Notes under the pieces: model-generated
Told to the model about the DNA's origin: nothing
Database searches by the model: none
What the model saw: the letters and a program-made list of their open reading frames with translations, nothing else
Made by a program: the position numbers and the translations under genes
From: Paraburkholderia agricolaris
Lineage (GTDB): Bacteria; Pseudomonadota; Gammaproteobacteria; Burkholderiales; Burkholderiaceae
Assembly: GCF_009455635.1 (NCBI RefSeq)
Contig: NZ_QPER01000001.1
Coordinates: 3,472,001-3,536,000, forward strand
Reading direction: 5' to 3'
DNA: 64,000 nt
Part shown: positions 30,294-39,582 of the stretch, one piece after another
How the letters are laid out: each line of letters begins with the position of its first letter
Numbering within the stretch: the first letter of the stretch is position 1

Positions 30294-31208
30294 TCACCCG
30301 GTTCGCCCCTCGCTCGCCTTCGTCACGCTCACGTCGACCTGCAACCCGCGAAACGAATGCGATGCGCCGTGCCAGGTGCCCCACAAAGGCAATGCCTGGT
30401 AGTAATTCCACGCCACCGCCACCCGGATCAGATGGCGATTGCCGACTATGCTATTGGTCGGATCGAAATCGACCCAGCCGGCGCCCGGCAAATAGATCTG
30501 CAGCCAGGCATGCGTCGCACCGCCGCCCTGCGTGGCATCCTGCTCGGGCACGAACAGATAACCGCTGACAAAGCGTGCCGCAAGACCGAGTGAGCGCACC
30601 GCGTCCATCATCAGCACCGCGAAATCGCGGCAACTGCCGCTGCGGTTGCGCAAGGTGTCGCCGGGACGGTTCACCCCCTTCTCCGTGCGGCGCACATAGC
30701 AAAACGTGCTTTTTATCTCGAGCGTCATTGCGCGCAATAGCGCCATCGTGCTGCCCGTGCCGTTCGTACCGCTGATACCGCGGGCACCCTGCACAGGAAC
30801 GAAACGGCGTGCCCATTCGTTCACGTCGCTGTCCGGATACTGGCGGCTGCGCGCGTTCACGAGATCGGAGGCTTCTTCGTTGGTGTACGCGAACGGCCAG
30901 TTCACGGCGTACGGCTCAAGCGCGTAGTCGGGCATGGGCGTTTCGAAGTGTTCGAGCGTCGCTTCGCTATCGAAGCGCAATTCGCTCGCCTTCCCCGTGA
31001 AACTCGCGACTGCCACCGAGTTGTCGAACACATCGTGCAGCCAGTGCAGCCGGGACGGTGTCGGTGTAATCAGCAACTGGTTCGTGACGAGGCGCAAGTC
31101 GTGGCTGGCGCGCGGACGGAACATCATTCGGTGTTCGCCGAACCGGACGGGTTCCGAGTAGCGGTAGACGCTGACATGACGTACCGTGAAACGCTGTGGC
31201 TCAGTCAT
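30294..31208 (-). CDS. Transglutaminase family protein
   Basis: The protein is ~304 residues. The N-terminal bacterial transglutaminase-associated region begins FTVRHVSVYRYSEPVRFGEHRMMFRPR (read in parts). The core keeps the full triad: SGSCRDFAVLMMDAVRSLG (Cys), GATHAWLQIYLPGAGW (His) and FDPTN (Asp). Such proteins are probably cysteine proteases or amide hydrolases; the substrate is unknown. The start is uncertain between 31208 (MTEPQRF) and 31229. It is co-directional with the second transglutaminase-like gene, 98 bp apart. Confidence 0.85.
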   Translation of the reverse strand: MTEPQRFTVRHVSVYRYSEPVRFGEHRMMFRPRASHDLRLVTNQLLITPTPSRLHWLHDVFDNSVAVASFTGKASELRFDSEATLEHFETPMPDYALEPYAVNWPFAYTNEEASDLVNARSRQYPDSDVNEWARRFVPVQGARGISGTNGTGSTMALLRAMTLEIKSTFCYVRRTEKGVNRPGDTLRNRSGSCRDFAVLMMDAVRSLGLAARFVSGYLFVPEQDATQGGGATHAWLQIYLPGAGWVDFDPTNSIVGNRHLIRVAVAWNYYQALPLWGTWHGASHSFRGLQVDVSVTKASEGRTG

Positions 31209-31574
31209 CTGACAGGCCGATGGATGCAACTGGATTCGTCCTGAGCATCACGTTCACGCTGGTAAAACCTGCTGCCGCGGCAGGTGCTGAGCGCCCGGCG
31301 CGGTTTGATCCTAAATGAGCCACAGCCGTGGTTTGGCGCGGTGGGACGCTGTCATCGACAAGCTTTCGACTTCAGCATACACCCGCCATATTGGTTGAAA
31401 TCACTCATTTGTGCTCAGATGCCGCTGGGTGCGGAAGCTACCAGCAGGATCTGTTCGCGAATCTGGGCGAAAACCGTTCCCCAACAGAAGAACTGATCTA
31501 CGTAATTGAGATAGTTTGATGCGGGCTGCCGATAGATATAATCCGCCGCTCGACCAATCCGACAAACAGCCTTC
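31209..31574. other. Intergenic gap before the frameshifted glycosyltransferase
   Basis: No gene is supported in this gap. A 12-bp palindrome centred on CCGCGG lies near 31275. A weak promoter-like pair TTGATG (31516-31521) and TATAAT (31537-31542) has only a 15-bp spacer. Confidence 0.4.
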
Positions 31575-32292
31575 ATGCGAGTCGCCGTCATTAGCGCCTA
31601 CTATAAAGAGCCGCGTTACGTCTTACGAAGATGTCACGAAAGCGTTCTTGCGCAAGCGGGTAATGTGACCCACGTTATGGTCGCCGACGGATTCCCTGCC
31701 TCCGACATTGATAGCTGGAAAGGTGTGATCCACATCAAGATTCCCAATCACGCGGACTATGGGGACACGCCTCGGCGTGGGTGCTGCTTACGCATCTGCG
31801 AATGGCTTCGATGCGATCTGTTTTCTGGACACCGACAACTGGTATGCGCCGAACCATGTCGAAACGATGCGCATCATAGTCGAGGAAACGGGCGCACAGG
31901 TAGTCACGGCGACTCGAACGATTTTCACTGCCGACGGCCGGATGCTCGGCATTTGCAAAGAATCCAACGGCGTCGATTTCAACGACACCAACTGTTATTT
32001 CCTTACGCGTGCCGCCTTTCCCGCGTGCGCGGCGTGGTTATTCAAGGACCCGCGCGAAAGCATCCGCGGTGACAAGATATTCTGGAATGCCGTGCGAACC
32101 GGTGGCTACCTACATTTCCACTCGATTGTGCCAACCGTCAATTACGTGAGCACGTTCGCATTTCACTACGAGATGTTCGGCGAAGTTCCGCCCGACGACT
32201 CGAAGGTCATTGCGAAACTGCCGGGCCGCCAGAATTTTCAGATGGTTAGTTACGCGGAATATAAGGCGATGGGGGGAGCGGGCAGCAGGTAG
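31575..32292 (+). pseudogene. Frameshifted glycosyltransferase-like gene
   Basis: Two overlapping frames together make one GT-A-type glycosyltransferase-like protein. The first (31575 to ~31770) opens MRVAVISAYYKEPRYVLRRC and reaches ADYGDTPR. The second continues GVGAAYASANGFDAICFLDTDNWYAP, with the DxD-like LDTD motif, to the stop at 32292. The switch is near 31765-31775 and needs the loss or gain of one base. Either the gene is inactivated or there is an assembly error. About 238 residues would result. It sits at the edge of the lower-GC island. Confidence 0.75.
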
Positions 32293-32362
32293 GGGGCGTT
32301 GTATGCAAACAAAATCATGATGGCAGCGCGCGCACCGCGGCCGTCCGCTTCGCCTTGGCGCC

Positions 32363-32427
32363 ATGACCAAACATCGGTCGGCCATGGAACTCAGCTCTCC
32401 GGCCAATTATTCTTCTGACGGCCTGTC
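32363..32427. repeat. Duplicated 65-bp 3' block (copy 1; copy 2 at 34352-34416)
   Basis: This block matches 34352-34416 with few differences at an offset of 1989 bp. It covers the stop region of the small gene on each side, with the shared core CCAATTATTCTTCTGACGG. It shows that the last and first genes of the array share a 3' flank. Confidence 0.85.
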
Positions 32428-32682
32428 AATTGGGTGCTGTGTAAGCGCCAGGCAATGTTTGATGTCAGGCCGGCCTGCCGCAATCACATTGAGCGCGGCA
32501 ACCCCCAGTTGCAGCGCCAATTCGTCGTCAAACTTAAATTCGTCGCCGTCTAGAAAAAACGGCACTTCCATAATTCCCGAGAGGACCGGAGCCAGTCTGG
32601 CTGAATCTACAGCCTGCATGACCAATTGCTGAGGATCTTCGGTGTAGGTCAAAACTAAGGAATACGGCAGATGATTGGCCAT
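32407..32682 (-). CDS. RHS-linked small paralog, copy 6
   Basis: A 91-residue soluble acidic protein belonging to a local family of at least six copies. The pattern is a strand YSLVLTYTEDPQQLVMQAVD, then LAPVL, PFFLDGDEFKFDDELALQLG, ALNVIAAGRPDIKH and a proline-rich end HPIDRPSEE. No signal peptide or membrane segment is present. The ATG at 32682 follows a GGAGGG ribosome site. It is the most divergent intact copy and the farthest from the RHS gene. Its role is unknown; immunity to an RHS-linked toxin is the leading inference. Confidence 0.75.
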   Translation of the reverse strand: MANHLPYSLVLTYTEDPQQLVMQAVDSARLAPVLSGIMEVPFFLDGDEFKFDDELALQLGVAALNVIAAGRPDIKHCLALTQHPIDRPSEE

Positions 32683-32743
32683 GGATACCCTCCACAGTCT
32701 TGATAGATTTTGAACGCTCTCTGTCTATGCAGCACGGCGGCCT
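32683..32743. repeat. Duplicated 61-bp 5' block (copy 1; copy 2 at 34209-34269)
   Basis: The segment upstream of small-gene copy 6, including its ribosome site, matches the segment upstream of copy 2 at an offset of 1526 bp. The shared core contains ATAGATTTTGAA and CTCTCTGT. Confidence 0.8.
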
Positions 32744-32768
32744 GCACGCCGCTCATGTCGAAAGCCAT

Positions 32769-33042
32769 CGCATTGCACATGTCGATTTGAGCTTCATACT
32801 GTGCGAAGCATTCGTTTTAGAAATATCCGGCGGCGCCGCCCGCGCCGCTGGACCGTCGCGCTGACAGGACCGTTCACGCTTTCCTACGGCCTTCATCAGG
32901 CTCACTGCTGTCCTGTCGGCGCCATGGCCAGCCTCCAGTCAGACGGTTCTTAAACTCCGGCTGTCATTTTTCTGGCGGCTTCTCGATTGGGTGTTGGGTG
33001 ACCGTCATATATTGCTTGATCTCCGGTTGACCCAGTGCGATC
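32769..33042. repeat. Duplicated ~274-bp block (copy 1; copy 2 at 33741-34014)
   Basis: This block matches 33741-34014 at a constant offset of 972 bp with scattered substitutions. It covers intergenic DNA and the 3' third of a small gene (copies 5 and 2). Shared landmarks include GTCGATTTGAGCTTCATACT and GGCGCCATGGCCAGCCTCC. Confidence 0.9.
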
Positions 33043-33242
33043 AGATTGAGCACTCCCCCTCCAAACCGGCGCGCGAATTCGTCGTCAAGCTTGAAATCGA
33101 ATTCGTCTAAAAGGATCGGTGCTTTAAGCGTTCGAGCCAGGAACGGCGCCAGCTTTGCAGGGTCAACTAACTGCAAGATCAACTGTTGACTATCTTCGTC
33201 GTAGGTTACGACCACGGACCGTGGGGGATAATTAGCCATCAA
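32964..33242 (-). CDS. RHS-linked small paralog, copy 5
   Basis: A 92-residue member of the local family, with SVVVTYDEDSQQLILQLVD, LAPFL, PILLDEFDFKLDDEFARRFG, VLNLIALGQPEIKQYMTVTQ and the end HPIEKPPEK. It starts at one of two adjacent ATGs (33242 or 33239). It is intact, and its C-terminal third is nearly identical to copy 2 because both lie in the 274-bp duplicated block. Function is unknown, as for the other copies. Confidence 0.8.
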   Translation of the reverse strand: MMANYPPRSVVVTYDEDSQQLILQLVDPAKLAPFLARTLKAPILLDEFDFKLDDEFARRFGGGVLNLIALGQPEIKQYMTVTQHPIEKPPEK

Positions 33243-33315
33243 TGATCTCTACACTTTTAAAAGATTCGAGGCAACAACAAAACGCTAGTCGGTAACGCCA
33301 CTCAACTTGTGCTTG

Positions 33316-33595
33316 CTACTCATCCGAGAGCCTATTGATTGGGTCCGGCGTAACAGTCATGTATTGCTTGATTTCAGGCTGACCCAGCGCGATCGCATTG
33401 AGCACTGCAACTCCAAGCCGACGCGCGAATTCGTCGTCAAGCCTGAAATCGAAATCGTCTAACAGGATCGGCACTGTGAATTTTCCAGCCAGAAGCGGGG
33501 CCAGTTTGGCTAGGCTCAACTAACTGCACGTTCAACCGCTGACTGTCTTGGTCGTAGTTCAGAACTACGGAGCGGGGCGGATCAATAGCCATCAT
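33316..33595 (-). pseudogene. RHS-linked small paralog, copy 4 (frameshifted)
   Basis: From ATG 33595 the frame reads MMAIDPPRSVVLNYDQDSQR and reaches LVEP, then goes out of frame. The continuation LAKLAPLLAGKFTVPILLDD to the stop at 33316 is in a second frame. The switch is near 33515-33520 and requires one extra base. The rest (FDFRLDDEFARRLGVAVLNAIALGQ, read in parts) is well preserved, so inactivation is recent or the base is an error. Confidence 0.8.
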
Positions 33596-33610
33596 TACCC
33601 TCTGCAAACA

Positions 33611-33742
33611 TTATTCATCGATATCCTCCGTATCCGACTGCCGTGGCAACTCGTCGATTGGCTGCTGGGTAACATTCATGTATCTCTCGATGTTAGGCTG
33701 GCCCAGCGCAATCAAATTGAGCATTGCAACCCCAAGCCGTCG
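33611..33742 (-). pseudogene. RHS-linked small paralog, copy 3 (3' remnant)
   Basis: This frame of 43 residues keeps only the C-terminal half of the family: RRLGVAMLNLIALGQPNIER, YMNVTQQPID, and a tail ELPRQSDTEDIDE. Its left-hand coding part is gone exactly where the 274-bp duplicated block begins (33741), so block insertion or recombination truncated it. Confidence 0.8.
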
Positions 33743-34014
33743 CATCGCACTTGTCGATTTGAGCTTCATACTGCGCTACGCATTCGTTTCAGACATCCGC
33801 CGGCGCGCGGCCCACGCCGCTGGACCGTCGCGATGACAGGACAGTTCACGTTTTCCTACGGCCTTCTTCAGGCTCGCGGCTGTCCTGCCGGCGCCATGGC
33901 CAGCCTCCAGTCAGACGGTTCTTGAACTCCGGCTGTCATTTTTCTGGCGGCTTCCCGATTGGGTGTTGGGTGACCGTCATATATTGCTTGATCTCCGGTT
34001 GACCCAGTGCGATC
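33741..34014. repeat. Duplicated ~274-bp block (copy 2; copy 1 at 32769-33042)
   Basis: Second copy of the block at 32769-33042. Its left boundary coincides with the broken end of small-gene copy 3, and its right end lies inside copy 2. Confidence 0.9.
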
Positions 34015-34208
34015 GTATTAAGCATTCCAATCCCAAGCTGTCGCGCAAATTCATCGTCCAGTTTGAAGTCTTTTTCATCAGCCATGACAACGCCCATTCG
34101 TCCTGCAACGAGTGGGGCAAGGCTGTTTGGATCAACAGTGTGAACGATTAACTGTTGCATATCTTTGTTGTAAGTCAGAACCACGGAATACGATGGATGA
34201 TTAGCCAT
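33936..34208 (-). CDS. RHS-linked small paralog, copy 2
   Basis: A 90-residue intact member. The N-terminal half is distinctive (YSVVLTYNKDMQQLIVHTVD, LAPLVAGRMGVVMADEKDFK) while the C-terminal third, from GQPEIKQYMTVTQ, is almost the same as copy 5. The protein is thus a mosaic. ATG 34208 was chosen over an in-frame start at 34379 because it has a GGAGGG ribosome site and matches the other copies' N-terminus. Confidence 0.8.
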   Translation of the reverse strand: MANHPSYSVVLTYNKDMQQLIVHTVDPNSLAPLVAGRMGVVMADEKDFKLDDEFARQLGIGMLNTIALGQPEIKQYMTVTQHPIGKPPEK

Positions 34209-34269
34209 CGATACCCTCCACATTCTTAATAGATTTTGAATGCTCTCTGTCGATGCAGCTCGGCGGCCT
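34209..34269. repeat. Duplicated 61-bp 5' block (copy 2; copy 1 at 32683-32743)
   Basis: Upstream flank of small-gene copy 2, matching the flank of copy 6. Confidence 0.8.
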
Positions 34270-34351
34270 AGGCGCCGGACGGTGGTGATAGGAGGACGGT
34301 CAGCACCTCTCCCACAGGCCTCATCAGGCCCGCTCCACTGTCCTTGATGGG

Positions 34352-34416
34352 ATGGCCAAACATCGGTCGACCATGGCACTCAACTCTCTGGCCAATTATT
34401 CTTCTGACGGTCTGTC
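34352..34416. repeat. Duplicated 65-bp 3' block (copy 2; copy 1 at 32363-32427)
   Basis: End and 3' flank of small-gene copy 1, matching the end and flank of copy 6. Confidence 0.85.
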
Positions 34417-34671
34417 GGTTGGTGCCTCTGTAAAAGTTATGTACTGTTTGAGATCGGGTTGACCCAGCGCGATCAGACTGAGCACGCCAGCACCAAATCG
34501 ACGCGCAAATTCGTCGTCAAGTTTGAACTCGAATTCATCCAGTAAGACGGGCATTTCAATTGCCCCTTTCAACGCCGTGGCAATCCTTGCTCGCTCGACT
34601 GACTGCAAGATCAACTGTTGGCGATCCTGGTCGTAAGTTACCAGCACGGAACATGGTGGAAATCTCATCAT
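34396..34671 (-). CDS. RHS-linked small paralog, copy 1 (translationally coupled to the RHS gene)
   Basis: A 91-residue member with CSVLVTYDQDRQQLILQSVE, PVLLDEFEFKLDDEFARRFG, LSLIALGQPDLKQY and the end APTDRPSEE. Its ATG (34671-34669) shares one base with the RHS stop in a TGATG junction, so ribosomes finishing the RHS gene can restart here. That coupling ties this family to the RHS protein. In polymorphic toxin systems the gene directly after the toxin is usually its immunity protein. This is inference here, because no toxin domain was recognised in the RHS tail. Confidence 0.82.
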   Translation of the reverse strand: MMRFPPCSVLVTYDQDRQQLILQSVERARIATALKGAIEMPVLLDEFEFKLDDEFARRFGAGVLSLIALGQPDLKQYITFTEAPTDRPSEE

Positions 34672-37076
34672 CAGCGCCCCCTGCACTCCTGATAGTCATC
34701 AAATGCATTCTTCTTGCAAAGCGCGAGGCCCGCCAAACCACCCATATATTTGGCAAGCGAGTTACACCTGAACATCTCGGACTCGTACTTCGCATGACAG
34801 TCCGCCTCACGCCACTCATTATCCCCGCTGCTCCCACACTTGACCATTCCACCGTTGCCGCTCGCGGCTCCGAAGAATGCGCTGTAAAGCACCATCCTCT
34901 TCGCAGATCCAGTCAGATCCGGCACAAGAACAGGATACGGAACCTGCGACTGATCGCTCAGCATCAGCTCCGTTGTCTCACCCCACTTCGGCAGTGTATC
35001 GCTCAGCTCGCTACCAAACAGCTTCCCTGTGAACTTCGCCTTCCACGCCACATAACATTCAACGCACATGTCGGGAACGAAGGTTCCTGCATCAGCCTTG
35101 ATTCCCGTGAGCATAGGCGGTGGCGCAACCGGGTCATTACCTAACTCCCAGTTGGTTAGCCAGACGCCTAGCTCAGCGTCGTTGATCGGCTGCCACCACG
35201 CGCCGTTAGTTGATACCTTCGCCGAACGCGACGACACCATGCCATTCGCACCGTACTGATAGTCGACTGCCAGTACGCGGGAAATTCCGCCGTTTATCGA
35301 ACTTGCCGGCTCTTTGTACTGAAAAGACTTTACACGGCCCCGTTCATCGTAAGCGATGCTCGCCTGGCCACTGTTACCCGCTATCTGCGTTGCACGGTTC
35401 GCGGCGTTTCGCTCGAGCGTTCGCATCGTCCATCCCGACACGGCGTCCTTGGTCGTCGCTATGTTGCCCTTTGCGTCGTAGGTATAAGTCCAGTCCTCGA
35501 GCTTCACGCCGTCCTGGATGACAGTGGCTGACACAAGGCGGCCTGCATCGTCGTAGCGTGCGCCGACTGTCATCTGATTGCCCGTCCCGAGCGCCTGCAG
35601 TCCCTGCTCGCCCGTCAGGTCAGTCGTTGCGCGCTCCGCATAACCCGTGACATTGCCTCGCGAGTCATAGACGAATGCGCGAACTTTGCCCGGCGTGGCG
35701 ACCAGATGCGGACGCAGTGAACTGTCATCGGTGTACTCAACCGTCGTTACTGTCTTTTTCCCCGCACCTGTCGCAACCGCCTTCGTTGGCCGGTTGATGC
35801 TGTCCCACGTGTACTGGATATTTCCATCAGGAGTCTCTCTCTGTTTCAGATTCCCTGCTGCATCCCACGTGCGCGAGACTGTGCCGCCTGGTGTGGCAAT
35901 TGAACGAGGGCGCCGCGTCTCCAGGACATCAAAGGTGTACGTGCTCCTGCCGGCCATGTCGCTGAGCGTCGTAAAGCCGGGACCGTAACTGAGCGACACG
36001 TTACGCGTCGTGTCAGGATGGCTGACTGAGCTTGCGCGTCCGTTCGAATCGTAGGTCCACGTTGCGATCCGCGAGCCGGATTCGTCCTTTACACCGGTCA
36101 ATGCGTTGGGAAAGCGAGCGTCCTCGTATAAGTACTGACGAACGTAGCCATCTGGTGGGGTTAGCGAAGCGAGATTACCTTTCGCATCGTACGCATAGTG
36201 CGTGGAATCGCCAGAGGGCGTCACCATGCTCAGCATGCGACCGTCCTTGTCGTATTTGAGCGTAATTGTCGTTCGCGATGCGGGCAGTCCTACGCGATCG
36301 ACAGGCCACTGGGCGATCGCCACAACCAGACGTCCGTTGTATGTGACCTCCCGAAACATGCCCGTGCGAGTTGTCTCGGACTGGAACAAACCCGTACTGC
36401 CCGAATACGCTTCCGTCGTACCAAGAAGTTCATCCTTCAGGTAGAAATACCCGTCGCCCGCTTTCGTCAGCTTGAGCCAGCGATTTGCCGGCACAACCCA
36501 CGCGCCGCCAATCCATTTGAACACCAGCGCTTGCTGGTCACCCCGGTAAGCAACGATGTGCGGCACGCTCGCTTTGACCCCAAGCAGATCGAGCCTACGC
36601 TGCCAGTTGTTGACCCAGTTGCGACCCATCGCTGTCTGCGCAGTGTCATAGGGTGTCGAGAGATACGTGCGCTTAAAGACGAGTGGAAGCGTGTCGCCAC
36701 TCGCAAAGTCAGCCTCAGAGAGCATGACAATGCCTTTCGCCGGCAACACCGGGTCCGCTACCGGACAGGAGTCGTCGGACTGAGGCGGAACCTGGACGCC
36801 GCCGCAATAGTCCGCAATCCAATCCGAGGCATTCGGACAGTTGTAGTAATTCATTGCGTTATAGGGATCGTCCGGGCCCGTCGACAAAGGCGAAGTGCCC
36901 GCGACCTGAATAGCGCAGATCGGGGTGCCGGGAATCCCGAGGGACTTCTGGTACGTCTGCATGCATTGCATGTAATCGGCCGCGTCGGCGCCAAACGTGA
37001 CCAGTAGCAGCATGAATGCGGTGAACAGGCGCGCGGCCGCGCCTGTTAGATTCTCCGTAGATCTTTTGTTTTTCAT
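34671..37076 (-). CDS. Sec-exported RHS/YD-repeat protein with cysteine-rich C-terminus
   Basis: The 801-residue protein has a signal peptide (LFTAFMLLLVTFGADAA). A cysteine-containing region (~30-100) precedes a DUF6531-like entry domain (SGDTLPLVFKRTYLSTPYDT). Roughly ten YD-type repeats follow, such as YDKDGRMLSMVTPSG, YDAKGNLASLTPPDG, YDSRGNVTGYAE and YDDAGRLVSATV. The last ~180 residues (from ~620) are unrelated to the repeats and carry several cysteines (CVECY, CGSSGDNE, ADCHAKYESEMFRC, ALCKKNAFDDYQEC). There is no DPxG motif, which normally ends an RHS core, and it is short for a T6SS RHS effector. ATG 37076 follows an AAGGA ribosome site. Confidence 0.85.
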   Translation of the reverse strand: MKNKRSTENLTGAAARLFTAFMLLLVTFGADAADYMQCMQTYQKSLGIPGTPICAIQVAGTSPLSTGPDDPYNAMNYYNCPNASDWIADYCGGVQVPPQSDDSCPVADPVLPAKGIVMLSEADFASGDTLPLVFKRTYLSTPYDTAQTAMGRNWVNNWQRRLDLLGVKASVPHIVAYRGDQQALVFKWIGGAWVVPANRWLKLTKAGDGYFYLKDELLGTTEAYSGSTGLFQSETTRTGMFREVTYNGRLVVAIAQWPVDRVGLPASRTTITLKYDKDGRMLSMVTPSGDSTHYAYDAKGNLASLTPPDGYVRQYLYEDARFPNALTGVKDESGSRIATWTYDSNGRASSVSHPDTTRNVSLSYGPGFTTLSDMAGRSTYTFDVLETRRPRSIATPGGTVSRTWDAAGNLKQRETPDGNIQYTWDSINRPTKAVATGAGKKTVTTVEYTDDSSLRPHLVATPGKVRAFVYDSRGNVTGYAERATTDLTGEQGLQALGTGNQMTVGARYDDAGRLVSATVIQDGVKLEDWTYTYDAKGNIATTKDAVSGWTMRTLERNAANRATQIAGNSGQASIAYDERGRVKSFQYKEPASSINGGISRVLAVDYQYGANGMVSSRSAKVSTNGAWWQPINDAELGVWLTNWELGNDPVAPPPMLTGIKADAGTFVPDMCVECYVAWKAKFTGKLFGSELSDTLPKWGETTELMLSDQSQVPYPVLVPDLTGSAKRMVLYSAFFGAASGNGGMVKCGSSGDNEWREADCHAKYESEMFRCNSLAKYMGGLAGLALCKKNAFDDYQECRGR

Positions 37077-37716
37077 AGTCATCCTTATTGGTTTACTTGG
37101 TTGACACCCAAGCACCCTATAAGGAGGCTTCCACCCTCTGCTATCCGACAATTCCTAAAACAAGGCCTCTTTTATTCCCGTACAAACGTCGCCCTCAAAC
37201 CTCCTACGCAATCCGTAGGGATCTATGCAAGAGACCGTTAGTCGCCACCGCGTCGCAGAGAAAAAACCAGAAGGTCGGACGTGGAAAATCCGCCGTTCAC
37301 AGTGAAGTGATGAGTCGCCGACACTAAACCCGGGCGACCGGAAGCGCAGAGACAGCACGCGGAGCGCGCGCCCATAAGGGACATAGCTAGCGCAGGAAAG
37401 CGCTGAGAAATTGATCGCCGTACAAACTACGATTCAAGAAATTAGAGCCGCGAGAAACGGGCTAAACCTCACCCGAGTGCCATCCGAACGGCAACCTCAA
37501 AGTTATCCCCAGTTTTAGTTCATAAATCTGTGCATAACTATCCGGCAAGATCGGCAAGCTCTTGATACGCCGGCTATTTTTGCCGCTACGCCGAAGTTGG
37601 GCAGACGAGGCGCATAGCCGTGTCGTGCGCCGGTTGTAGCGGAGTTTCGCCTCAATCGCAGTTGAGAGCCCATCTCGCCGTCGAGTCCCCCGCGCCGCAC
37701 GCCGGCGTCACACGCA
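37077..37716. other. 640-bp gap upstream of the RHS gene
   Basis: No gene is supported. A 67-residue open frame (37155-37358, minus) lacks a ribosome site and any recognisable pattern. A near DnaA box TTATCCCCA (37503-37511) and a consensus one on the other strand (37529-37537) are present but isolated. The gap has lower GC than the flanks. Confidence 0.5.
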
Positions 37717-39138
37717 TCAATCCCGCACCGCGCCCGCGGCATCCTCGCGCCCGCTTTCCGGCGCAGCCGGCGCACTACGCTCCTCGTCGCGCCATTCCTG
37801 CCTCGACCGCACCATTCTGCGCACAGCAAGACGCGCCATCTTCACCCAGCCAGACGGACGTGGATCGGCGAGCATGCTGAGCGCACGCGCATAATCGAGC
37901 GTCAGACCCGGCGTCCACGCCATCGTCGCGGCGCGTTTGCGCAGTTGCGCGGCCACCCACAATTCCGGCGTCGTAATCACGCGCAAGAACGGCCGCCAAC
38001 CGCCGAGATCGCCCCACACGCGCGCCGACGCGCCTTCGATCGCCGCTTCCAGCGCGTGCGATACGGTACTCGAACAATTGCGATGCGTCAGGTTGTAGGT
38101 CGTGTCCTGACGATAGGTGTCCCAGAAACGGCGCAGCCGCGCCGGATCGTAATTGCGTATGCGCACCTGAACCGTCGACGGACACCATGCTTTCGATTCA
38201 GTCGGATAGTCAGGCTGAAATAAACCGGGCACGTCGTTCTCGCTGGTCGCGCGCAGAAGCCGCGCGAAATCGTCGGGTGAGCGATCGATCTCGACGCCGG
38301 GATACAGGCTGATATAGATACCCTCAGGCGATTCGAGCGCGGCATGCCCGGTAGATATCACACCGTTGCGATCCACCGCGGCAATATAGCGGTCGACAAT
38401 CAATTGCCGCCGTGCCTCGCTCCTGGACGATCCCACTGGCGTCCACACATGCACAGTGAGCGCCTCTTCATCGGCGGCGGGTGGGCCGTCCCATTCGACG
38501 ACACCCAGCCGACCGGGCGCGATCGCACTCGCCGCGGAATTAGCGGCATCAGCCGTTGCGTCATCCGAAGCGACCGCGAGATTCGACGCGAGACGCCGCA
38601 CCCGCGTGCTCAGCAAAATCATGTTCCAGCCGCCGAATATCAGGCCGAGACCGAGGCAGTACGGCACGGTGCCTACATAGTGCGTCGGATATGGCTGATA
38701 GAAGAAAATCGCCAGCGCGATTTCAATCGCGCCGCCGATCATCGCGAGGCGCCAGGTACGATATCGAACGACCTTTGCGGAGACGATCTGCAGCAGACCG
38801 TCGGCCAGAAAGAGCGTGCCGAAGATCATCGACAGAATGAAGTTGCCGTGGTGATGGCCGACGAGAATCAGCGCCGCCGCGAAGCAGAATGCGAAGCCCT
38901 TCACGTAGCGCAGCGTGCGTTGGCCGCCCATGCCGGTCCAGGCGACGGCCAGCGTGGCGAGTCCTTCGAGCAGCAGCAATACGGCGAACGGTGTGATCGG
39001 GAAATAGAGCGCGCTATCGAGTGCGTCGATGAACACCACCACGCCAAGCGCGAGGCTCATCCAGCCGATCAACTGCAATGAACGCCAACGCGTACGCAAA
39101 TAATCGACACCCAGCAGGATCATAACCAGCCGAACCAT
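37717..39138 (-). CDS. HdeD/DUF308-type membrane protein fused to a permuted papain-like domain
   Basis: The 473-residue protein has six or more membrane segments in residues 1-190, in the HdeD/DUF308 style (LALGVVVFIDALDSALYFPI, FGTLFLADGLLQIV, LGLIFGGWNMILL). A polar linker precedes a soluble domain (~225-420). That domain has STGHAALESPEGIYISLYPG (histidine near 265) before YNLTHRNCSSTVSHALEAA (cysteine near 354). The His-before-Cys order matches circularly permuted NlpC/P60-like folds and the DUF4105 group, some members of which act on lipoprotein lipids. The fusion suggests an enzyme held at the inner membrane. Exact activity is unknown. Confidence 0.7.
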   Translation of the reverse strand: MVRLVMILLGVDYLRTRWRSLQLIGWMSLALGVVVFIDALDSALYFPITPFAVLLLLEGLATLAVAWTGMGGQRTLRYVKGFAFCFAAALILVGHHHGNFILSMIFGTLFLADGLLQIVSAKVVRYRTWRLAMIGGAIEIALAIFFYQPYPTHYVGTVPYCLGLGLIFGGWNMILLSTRVRRLASNLAVASDDATADAANSAASAIAPGRLGVVEWDGPPAADEEALTVHVWTPVGSSRSEARRQLIVDRYIAAVDRNGVISTGHAALESPEGIYISLYPGVEIDRSPDDFARLLRATSENDVPGLFQPDYPTESKAWCPSTVQVRIRNYDPARLRRFWDTYRQDTTYNLTHRNCSSTVSHALEAAIEGASARVWGDLGGWRPFLRVITTPELWVAAQLRKRAATMAWTPGLTLDYARALSMLADPRPSGWVKMARLAVRRMVRSRQEWRDEERSAPAAPESGREDAAGAVRD

Positions 39139-39306
39139 CGCAAACCCTCCGTGATCGATGCGCCTTTCTGGTCGTAATCTTAACCATATTCATGGTAGCG
39201 GCGTAACCGGCCCCCTATAGCGATGATCCACGCGCGGCGAAGCTGACATCCAGCGCCGCCCCACCTATGCATCGCGCATCGGCATCATATGATCGCAACG
39301 GAATTC

Positions 39307-39582
39307 TCAAACGTATTTGTGACGCTCATGCCGATGCGCCTTCGCCGGACGTACGCCGCGTTTGCCCACGCTCCTGGCCGCGTGCGGTTCGTCAGCACGC
39401 GGCGCGGCCGATGAAGTGGCTGCTGCGGGCAACGGTCCCGTTGCGGCATCGATGAGCTTCTGCAATTCGTCTTGCGCGTAAGCAGGCAGCGGTGCGGGCG
39501 GATACGTCGCAGCGGCAGCCATGACCGTGGAGGAAGCCGCACAAGCGAGGCCGAGAGCGATGATTAAGCAAGCGATTTTCAT
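39307..39582 (-). CDS. Small secreted hypothetical protein
   Basis: The 91-residue precursor has a clear signal peptide (MKIACLIIALGLACAASSTVMA). It is followed by a proline/alanine-rich stretch and a basic tail rich in arginine, lysine and histidine (KAHRHERHKYV). ATG 39582 follows an AGGA ribosome site. I do not recognise a family. It may be a short periplasmic protein. Confidence 0.6.
   Translation of the reverse strand: MKIACLIIALGLACAASSTVMAAAATYPPAPLPAYAQDELQKLIDAATGPLPAAATSSAAPRADEPHAARSVGKRGVRPAKAHRHERHKYV

Follow-up and report, generated by a model that had tools for sequence, protein, structure and literature searches.

A C-terminal tail of an RHS protein and its array of small partner genes in Paraburkholderia agricolaris, a probable toxin-immunity module

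Why should an RHS gene lead directly into six related copies of one small gene? The question is raised by a stretch of 64,000 nucleotides of Paraburkholderia agricolaris (contig NZ_QPER01000001.1, positions 3,472,001 to 3,536,000, in a genome of 8.7 Mb and two contigs), hereafter the window, in which an RHS/YD-repeat gene is followed by tandem homologues encoding a protein of about 91 residues. We read the locus, with good confidence, as a polymorphic toxin-immunity module joined to a homogeneous polyimmunity array. The RHS protein would be an exported carrier whose last ~55 residues (the tail) form an exchangeable effector module, and the overlapping 91-residue gene would encode the cognate cytosolic immunity protein. 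New tail-partner modules would replace the tail on the carrier and the old tails would decay, the old partner genes being partly kept as the homogeneous polyimmunity array, which would probably protect against relatives still using the old tails.

The tail and its partner across genomes

The small-protein family was searched in one genome per species (84,980 species), and the best 80 of 85 matches gave 76 loci; the named close hits were mostly from Paraburkholderia. Counting the window, 66 of the 77 loci fetched by the family contained the tail, either on RHS proteins, on other proteins, or as loose fragments within arrays; 29 of the fetched loci had a tail-bearing frame of 190 to 399 residues, and in 11, besides the window, the tail was on an RHS frame of 600 residues or more. 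The tail alone, used as a query, matched 71 of 398 genomes of the taxonomic family and, at the level of the class (369 genomes), gave only the P. agricolaris genome itself and one weak match, the absences in this search being soft because 15 candidates were scored per genome. Sixty further regions were picked from the list of tail matches, mostly higher-scoring ones. From 201 domain hits we retained 131 distinct tails that reached the profile end, started by position 20 and had a stop codon, and every one of these 131 C-terminally complete tails was followed by a family member. Sixty-four came from tail-fetched loci (two of these 64 being the window's own), and 36 lay in frames shorter than 190 residues, orphan, broken and contig-edge tails among them. 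The stop codon touched or overlapped a possible start in 109 cases (54 TGATG, 21 TAATG, and 34 NTGA, by pattern). As read from these loci, the unit is the tail plus its 91-residue partner, and the family tracks the tail, not RHS. An earlier reading of the window, made from the sequence only, had treated RHS gene and array as the unit; the RHS gene does adjoin the array here, but the family follows the tail onto other carriers too. The same reading had named homologues lying mostly away from RHS genes as evidence against a toxin-immunity role. Most of them do lie away from RHS genes, and this does not speak against the role, since those homologues adjoin the same tail on other carriers.

Joint inheritance was examined in 21 RHS frames of at least 780 residues with tail and partner. 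Tail and partner identities were correlated (r 0.66, p 2e-4; partial r given the core, 0.66), core and tail identities were not (r 0.05, p 0.24), and core and partner identities were correlated weakly (r 0.18, p 0.017). Between the window and locus L242, for example, the core was 69% identical, the tail 96%, and the partner 95% over the profile region. For the 122 of the 131 pairs kept for a larger comparison, the tail-partner correlation (r 0.46) exceeded all 1000 permutations, and within the frames of 190 to 399 residues alone it was 0.54. Net charges of the 122 pairs did not clearly complement each other (means of -1.6 for the tail and -3.3 for the partner, r -0.25). To judge from these identities, tail and partner vary jointly and independently of the RHS core.

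The carriers differ. Among 103 in which 90 or more residues precede the tail, 74 formed one loose cluster, 15 belonged to the RHS cluster, eight formed another cluster, five were PAAR proteins (all passing the Pfam cut-off), and one stood alone; three more database proteins combine the tail with a precomputed PAAR annotation. When one non-RHS N-terminus (A4) was searched in 299 genomes of the taxonomic family, 30 loci were retrieved with 31 frames, of which 11 had the tail at their end and 15 had other domains there, the remaining five being fragments or truncated. The other C-termini, of at least four kinds by eye, followed a similar linker (LGDAQPFEY and variants), and Pfam named none of the nine A4 proteins of this sort that were scanned. 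These short domains on the LGDAQPFEY-linker N-terminus (loci L208, L210-L212, L214-L217, L225-L229, L231, and L232) are possibly further toxins of new type.

RHS paralogues with cores 39 to 50% identical likewise bear other C-termini. None of the 21 such loci examined (20 of them picked from the core-match list) had a family member in the region examined. One paralogue (L275:1519-3981, minus strand) carries a Colicin_E5 ribonuclease (RNase) domain (PF12106, 3e-27) in the slot of the tail, and the C-terminus of L276 is nearly identical to it. Ten others have different cysteine-rich tails and then a protein of about 80 residues from a different family, located -7 to +17 bases from the stop in eight of them, at a distance of 51 bases in L277 and of 88 bases in L272; a kinship of this second partner family with the 91-residue family was not supported (hhalign probability 0.8%). 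In the P. agricolaris genome itself (L270, G000:C2:1115000-1119200), a paralogue of the RHS gene ends in a cysteine-rich tail of a different kind, and an 81-residue protein of another family comes after it; small frames like this one recur downstream in L266 and L267, so that this family may also form arrays. In L247, L248, and L256, family members adjoin RHS relatives in which the tail was not recognised; these RHS frames end differently and may be broken. Taken together, these comparisons give good support to the view that the C-terminus is an exchangeable module of effector type whose partner is specific to it.

Two isolated observations concern the same pair. In L203:1599-2183 (plus strand) the tail, without its first cysteine, and a family member share one frame as a natural fusion. 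In L055, tail and family accompany an RHS gene on a 10-kb contig that bears the label of a metagenome-assembled genome of Rudaea sp., a gammaproteobacterial genus; this is possibly a binning error.

The array and its relics

The RHS frame has 826 codons when counted from a TTG; from the ATG at 37076 the product has 801 residues and starts MKNKRSTENLTGAAARLFTAFMLLLVTFGADAA, which by eye and hydropathy resembles a signal peptide. RHS/YD repeats were recognised by Pfam (RHS_repeat, PF05593, 3.4e-26; DUF6531, 4e-11) and by NCBIfam (TIGR01643), and Pfam gave no PAAR match. The core was matched in 51 of 144 genomes of the genus (E <= 1e-60). The TGA that ends the RHS gene overlaps the copy 1 ATG by one base, giving a TGATG at 34671, and the six tandem homologues comprise four intact copies (c1, c2, c5, and c6), a frameshifted one (c4) and a 3' remnant (c3), much as the sequence-only reading had described both the exported-looking gene with its junction and the array. 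Copies 2 to 6 are 44 to 62% identical to copy 1, and a DNA repeat of 100 bases is common to all six. Within its own genome the family turned up at this locus alone (two genome searches, with six and seven matches).

Table 1. Features of the RHS locus, in window coordinates.
Feature	Positions	Strand	Basis or remarks
RHS/YD-repeat protein, carrier of the C-terminal module	34671..37151	-	Frame, Pfam; 826 codons from TTG
C-terminal tail module of the RHS protein, proposed toxin domain	34674..34868	-	C-x10-C twice, predicted two-helix hairpin
Copy 1 (c1), 91 aa, TGATG-coupled, proposed cognate immunity protein	34396..34671	-	Frame, profile
Tail relic before copy 2	34229..34264	-	17.5 bits; internal stop, LHRQRAFKIY*ECGGY
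Copy 2 (c2), 90 aa, intact	33936..34208	-	Frame, profile
Tail relic joined to the c3 remnant	33735..33788	-	18 residues, tail positions 11-28 of 53
Copy 3 (c3), 3' remnant	33611..33769	-	Profile positions 52-77 of 77 at 33668-33745
Copy 4 (c4), frameshifted	33316..33595	-	Profile positions 1-29 and 24-77, two frames
Copy 5 (c5), 91 aa, intact	32964..33239	-	Frame, profile
Orphan tail before copy 6	32688..32816	-	60.9 bits; tail positions 11-53 of 53
Copy 6 (c6), 91 aa, intact	32407..32682	-	Frame, profile

Remains of further tails lie between the copies (Table 1). The orphan tail before copy 6 has no RHS core ahead of it and has lost its own stop and the last two cysteines, and directly upstream of c4 there is a weak match (11.8 bits) with a short scar (CRG, TAA) recognised by eye. 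For a wider test we used 135 copies with distinct and complete upstream DNA, 68 of which follow a complete tail, and counted the other 67 apart. Upstream tail homology of at least 5 bits was found for 33 of these 67, against none in the reverse complements and none in one shuffle each; over all 135 copies the count was 101, against two and one, respectively.

The copies themselves resemble partners in use elsewhere. Copy 1 is 93% identical to the copy in RHS locus L242, and the best matches among the partners of RHS-length carriers are 79% for c2 (L072), 90% for c5 (L049), and 79% for c6 (L068), the RHS frames of the last three loci having 798 to 829 residues. Copy 6 is also 87% identical to a copy in RHS locus L258, and the intact part of c4 is 85% identical to the partner in L061, where the RHS frame is broken (415 residues). 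Some copies that follow short or broken tails match the window copies more closely than the RHS-length partners do. Measured against chosen relatives, the ratio of nonsynonymous to synonymous substitution rates (dN/dS) was 0.10 to 0.17 for the four intact copies. Old partners thereby appear conserved while the old tails show stops or lost residues. Family hits per locus, which count frames, so that a frameshifted copy can count twice, ranged from one to seven, with a single hit in 47 of 77 loci, and arrays were commoner at RHS loci (at least two hits in 8 of 11) than at loci with a carrier of 190 to 399 residues (5 of 29). The array, as its sequence reads, is a record of displaced tail-partner modules, left by repeated tail replacement at one locus, and its downstream copies likely guard against related tails or act as a reservoir.

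It could be argued that these copies are instead neutral duplicates heading for loss, giving no protection, which would leave a toxin-immunity role for copy 1 intact. That one copy is frameshifted and another truncated would fit such an explanation, as would the spread of hits per locus and the many loci with one. The conservation of the four intact copies and the resemblance of c2, c5, and c6 to RHS partners in other genomes speak against it, and we regard neutral decay as an improbable account of the array.

Two features of the DNA around the copies may be added. A direct repeat of 300 bases (32762-33061 and 33734-34033, 89% identical), which takes in the 3' portions of c5 and c2 and runs on beyond them, suggests duplication or gene conversion between array units. 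Adjoining the array end, two overlapping frames (31575-32292, plus strand) look by eye like a single gene of glycosyltransferase type that a frameshift has split. The Rfam scan of 31000-39500 gave no match.

The tail as a putative toxin

All four cysteines of the tail are invariant in an alignment of 29 rows, and two are only nearly invariant in an alignment of 48 rows; their spacing is mostly C-x10-C, x15, C-x10-C. AlphaFold2 predicted two helices for the 65-residue tail (16-37 and 45-63; overall predicted local distance difference test score [pLDDT] 78, about 90 in the hairpin); its model of the small protein combines a beta hairpin with helices (pLDDT 85). With the cysteines at 24, 35, 51, and 62, the pairs would face each other in an antiparallel hairpin, because 24+62 = 35+51, and in this model they perhaps pair as disulfides. 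Neither the fold search of the PDB with the two models nor the sequence search of solved structures gave anything significant for tail or small protein. For an enzyme the tail appears too short; it probably acts through binding to a target, perhaps as a hairpin stapled by disulfides, and this is the least certain part of our interpretation. The small proteins have no signal-like stretch (hydropathy for two copies, the others by eye), and for this reason the partner is probably cytosolic. Pfam gave no match above cut-off for the small protein or the tail region, and the members scanned had none in NCBIfam above cut-off and none in PADLOC (PHROGs lay outside the scan). Both families seem to be undescribed; the sequence-only reading had not recognised the pattern of the small family.

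The toxin-immunity layout proposed at the outset has gained support from the linkage at 131 of 131 tails, the shared carriers, the swapping of C-termini, the covariation, the relics, and the window copies that match RHS partners elsewhere. The partner is likely an immunity protein acting in the cytosol, which would neutralise a toxic tail by binding it. The RHS protein is probably exported. Type VI delivery is suggested for the PAAR carriers of the tail, and for them only.

Several points weigh against this interpretation. Toxicity, binding, and expression of the pair are all predictions from sequence. The tail is small, with no significant fold match and no evident catalytic residues, and a need of the toxin for disulfides would sit awkwardly with a cytosolic partner, unless the bonds arose after export or the cysteines had another role. 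DPxGL, the motif of canonical Rhs, occurs neither in the window RHS protein nor in any of the 55 RHS frames inspected, a set that contains its own frame and partial ones. A weak match to the tail in a different taxonomic family (L143), outside the 131, had no family member in the 3.1 kb examined. Shared ancestry can inflate the tail-partner correlations, for which the RHS core is the only control. Upstream of c5 there is no significant relic (-1.2 bits; a few similar residues by eye only), and the same holds for 34 of the 67 copies without a complete tail, c5 included. Finally, pairwise dN/dS also spans the time that a copy spent as the cognate gene in another lineage, and for copy 2 the synonymous divergence (dS, 1.23) is near saturation.

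That many N-termini share one tail, that tail and partner genes are tightly coupled, and that the partner is predicted to be a small compact domain would all suit a dedicated chaperone or adaptor that loads carriers via a constant tail, the tail then being a sorting signal rather than a toxin. This we hold to be very unlikely, given that the tail sits where other C-terminal domains sit, after a similar linker, that a colicin E5 RNase domain occupies the same slot in an RHS paralogue, and that the partners persist, conserved, after the tail has decayed; a single chaperone for both signal-peptide-type and PAAR carriers also seems unlikely. Least credible of all is a mainly intracellular addiction module of the toxin-antitoxin kind with no neighbour attacked, which no result of the analysis favours directly, for although Salmonella RHS elements are reported as toxin-antitoxin modules in the available text of PMC7043789, the PAAR domains or signal-like N-terminus of the carriers point to export and partners without tails are kept.

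Within the toxin-immunity reading, we put forward as a tentative idea, on which we would not insist, that the tail represents a new class of interbacterial toxin: a non-enzymatic, disulfide-stapled helical hairpin of ~55 residues that would kill a cell, or arrest it, by binding its target, is mobile among Burkholderiaceae carriers (signal-peptide-type RHS, PAAR, and others) and has its own cytosolic immunity family. Stapled hairpins may even be a general type of warhead, since RHS paralogues have other cysteine-rich tails and a second family of small partners.

Comparison with known systems

We did not recognise the tail-partner pair among the top matches of the literature searched, most subscription papers being outside its reach, nor was it found among the Burkholderiales RHS and type VI secretion system (T6SS) loci in the available text of PMC11481896 and PMC10434147. 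It appears to be a new toxin-immunity pair within a known kind of system. In the helical proteins of the CHCH (twin CX9C) family, two helices with two cysteines each place their cysteine pairs face to face in a hairpin. The predicted tail has the same arrangement; unlike CHCH proteins, it has C-x10-C twice instead of C-x9-C, and the PDB yielded nothing significant for it by sequence or by fold. We rejected a CHCH identity on its spacing and the lack of a significant fold match. Disulfide-bearing effectors are plausible, given the role of DsbA in T6SS competition reported in the accessible part of PMC5792426.

The closest parallel is Rhs-CT/RhsI, for which orphan rhs-CT/rhsI modules, and the production of an orphan immunity protein in a contact-dependent growth inhibition (CDI) system, are established (PMC3150448, available text). 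As described there, an RHS carrier has an exchangeable C-terminus with a small gene directly downstream, and displaced CT fragments are followed by partner genes; the window shows both. It departs from that description in that its RHS protein is short, has a signal-like N-terminus and lacks DPxGL, and in that tail and partner belong to other families, known from sequence.

Homogeneous polyimmunity loci have been defined for polymorphic toxin systems (PMC3482391, available text) as tandem paralogues of one immunity-type family, which in the window stand beside a toxin-type gene. The window array is of a single family, presumably of the immunity kind and outside the Imm families of Pfam, since it has no Pfam match; unlike the loci as described there, several of its units retain relics of toxin tails. 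The strings of EsaG and TipC of type VII secretion, where EsaG genes recombine (PMC9484751, available text), are similar in having non-identical immunity paralogues with recombination between them; by that description they are set apart by other hosts and another secretion system, and the window copies partly alternate with tail relics. PAAR effectors of type VI secretion offer a further parallel, since PAAR proteins of related bacteria end in this tail, whereas the window RHS protein itself has no Pfam PAAR match.

An apparently undescribed toxin-immunity pair is thus added to the polymorphic toxin repertoire of the Burkholderiaceae; should the hairpin prove to be the toxin, its size would be unusually small for a warhead. 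Cross-protection is directly testable, since intact partners in the array resemble those that go with the RHS genes of named relatives.

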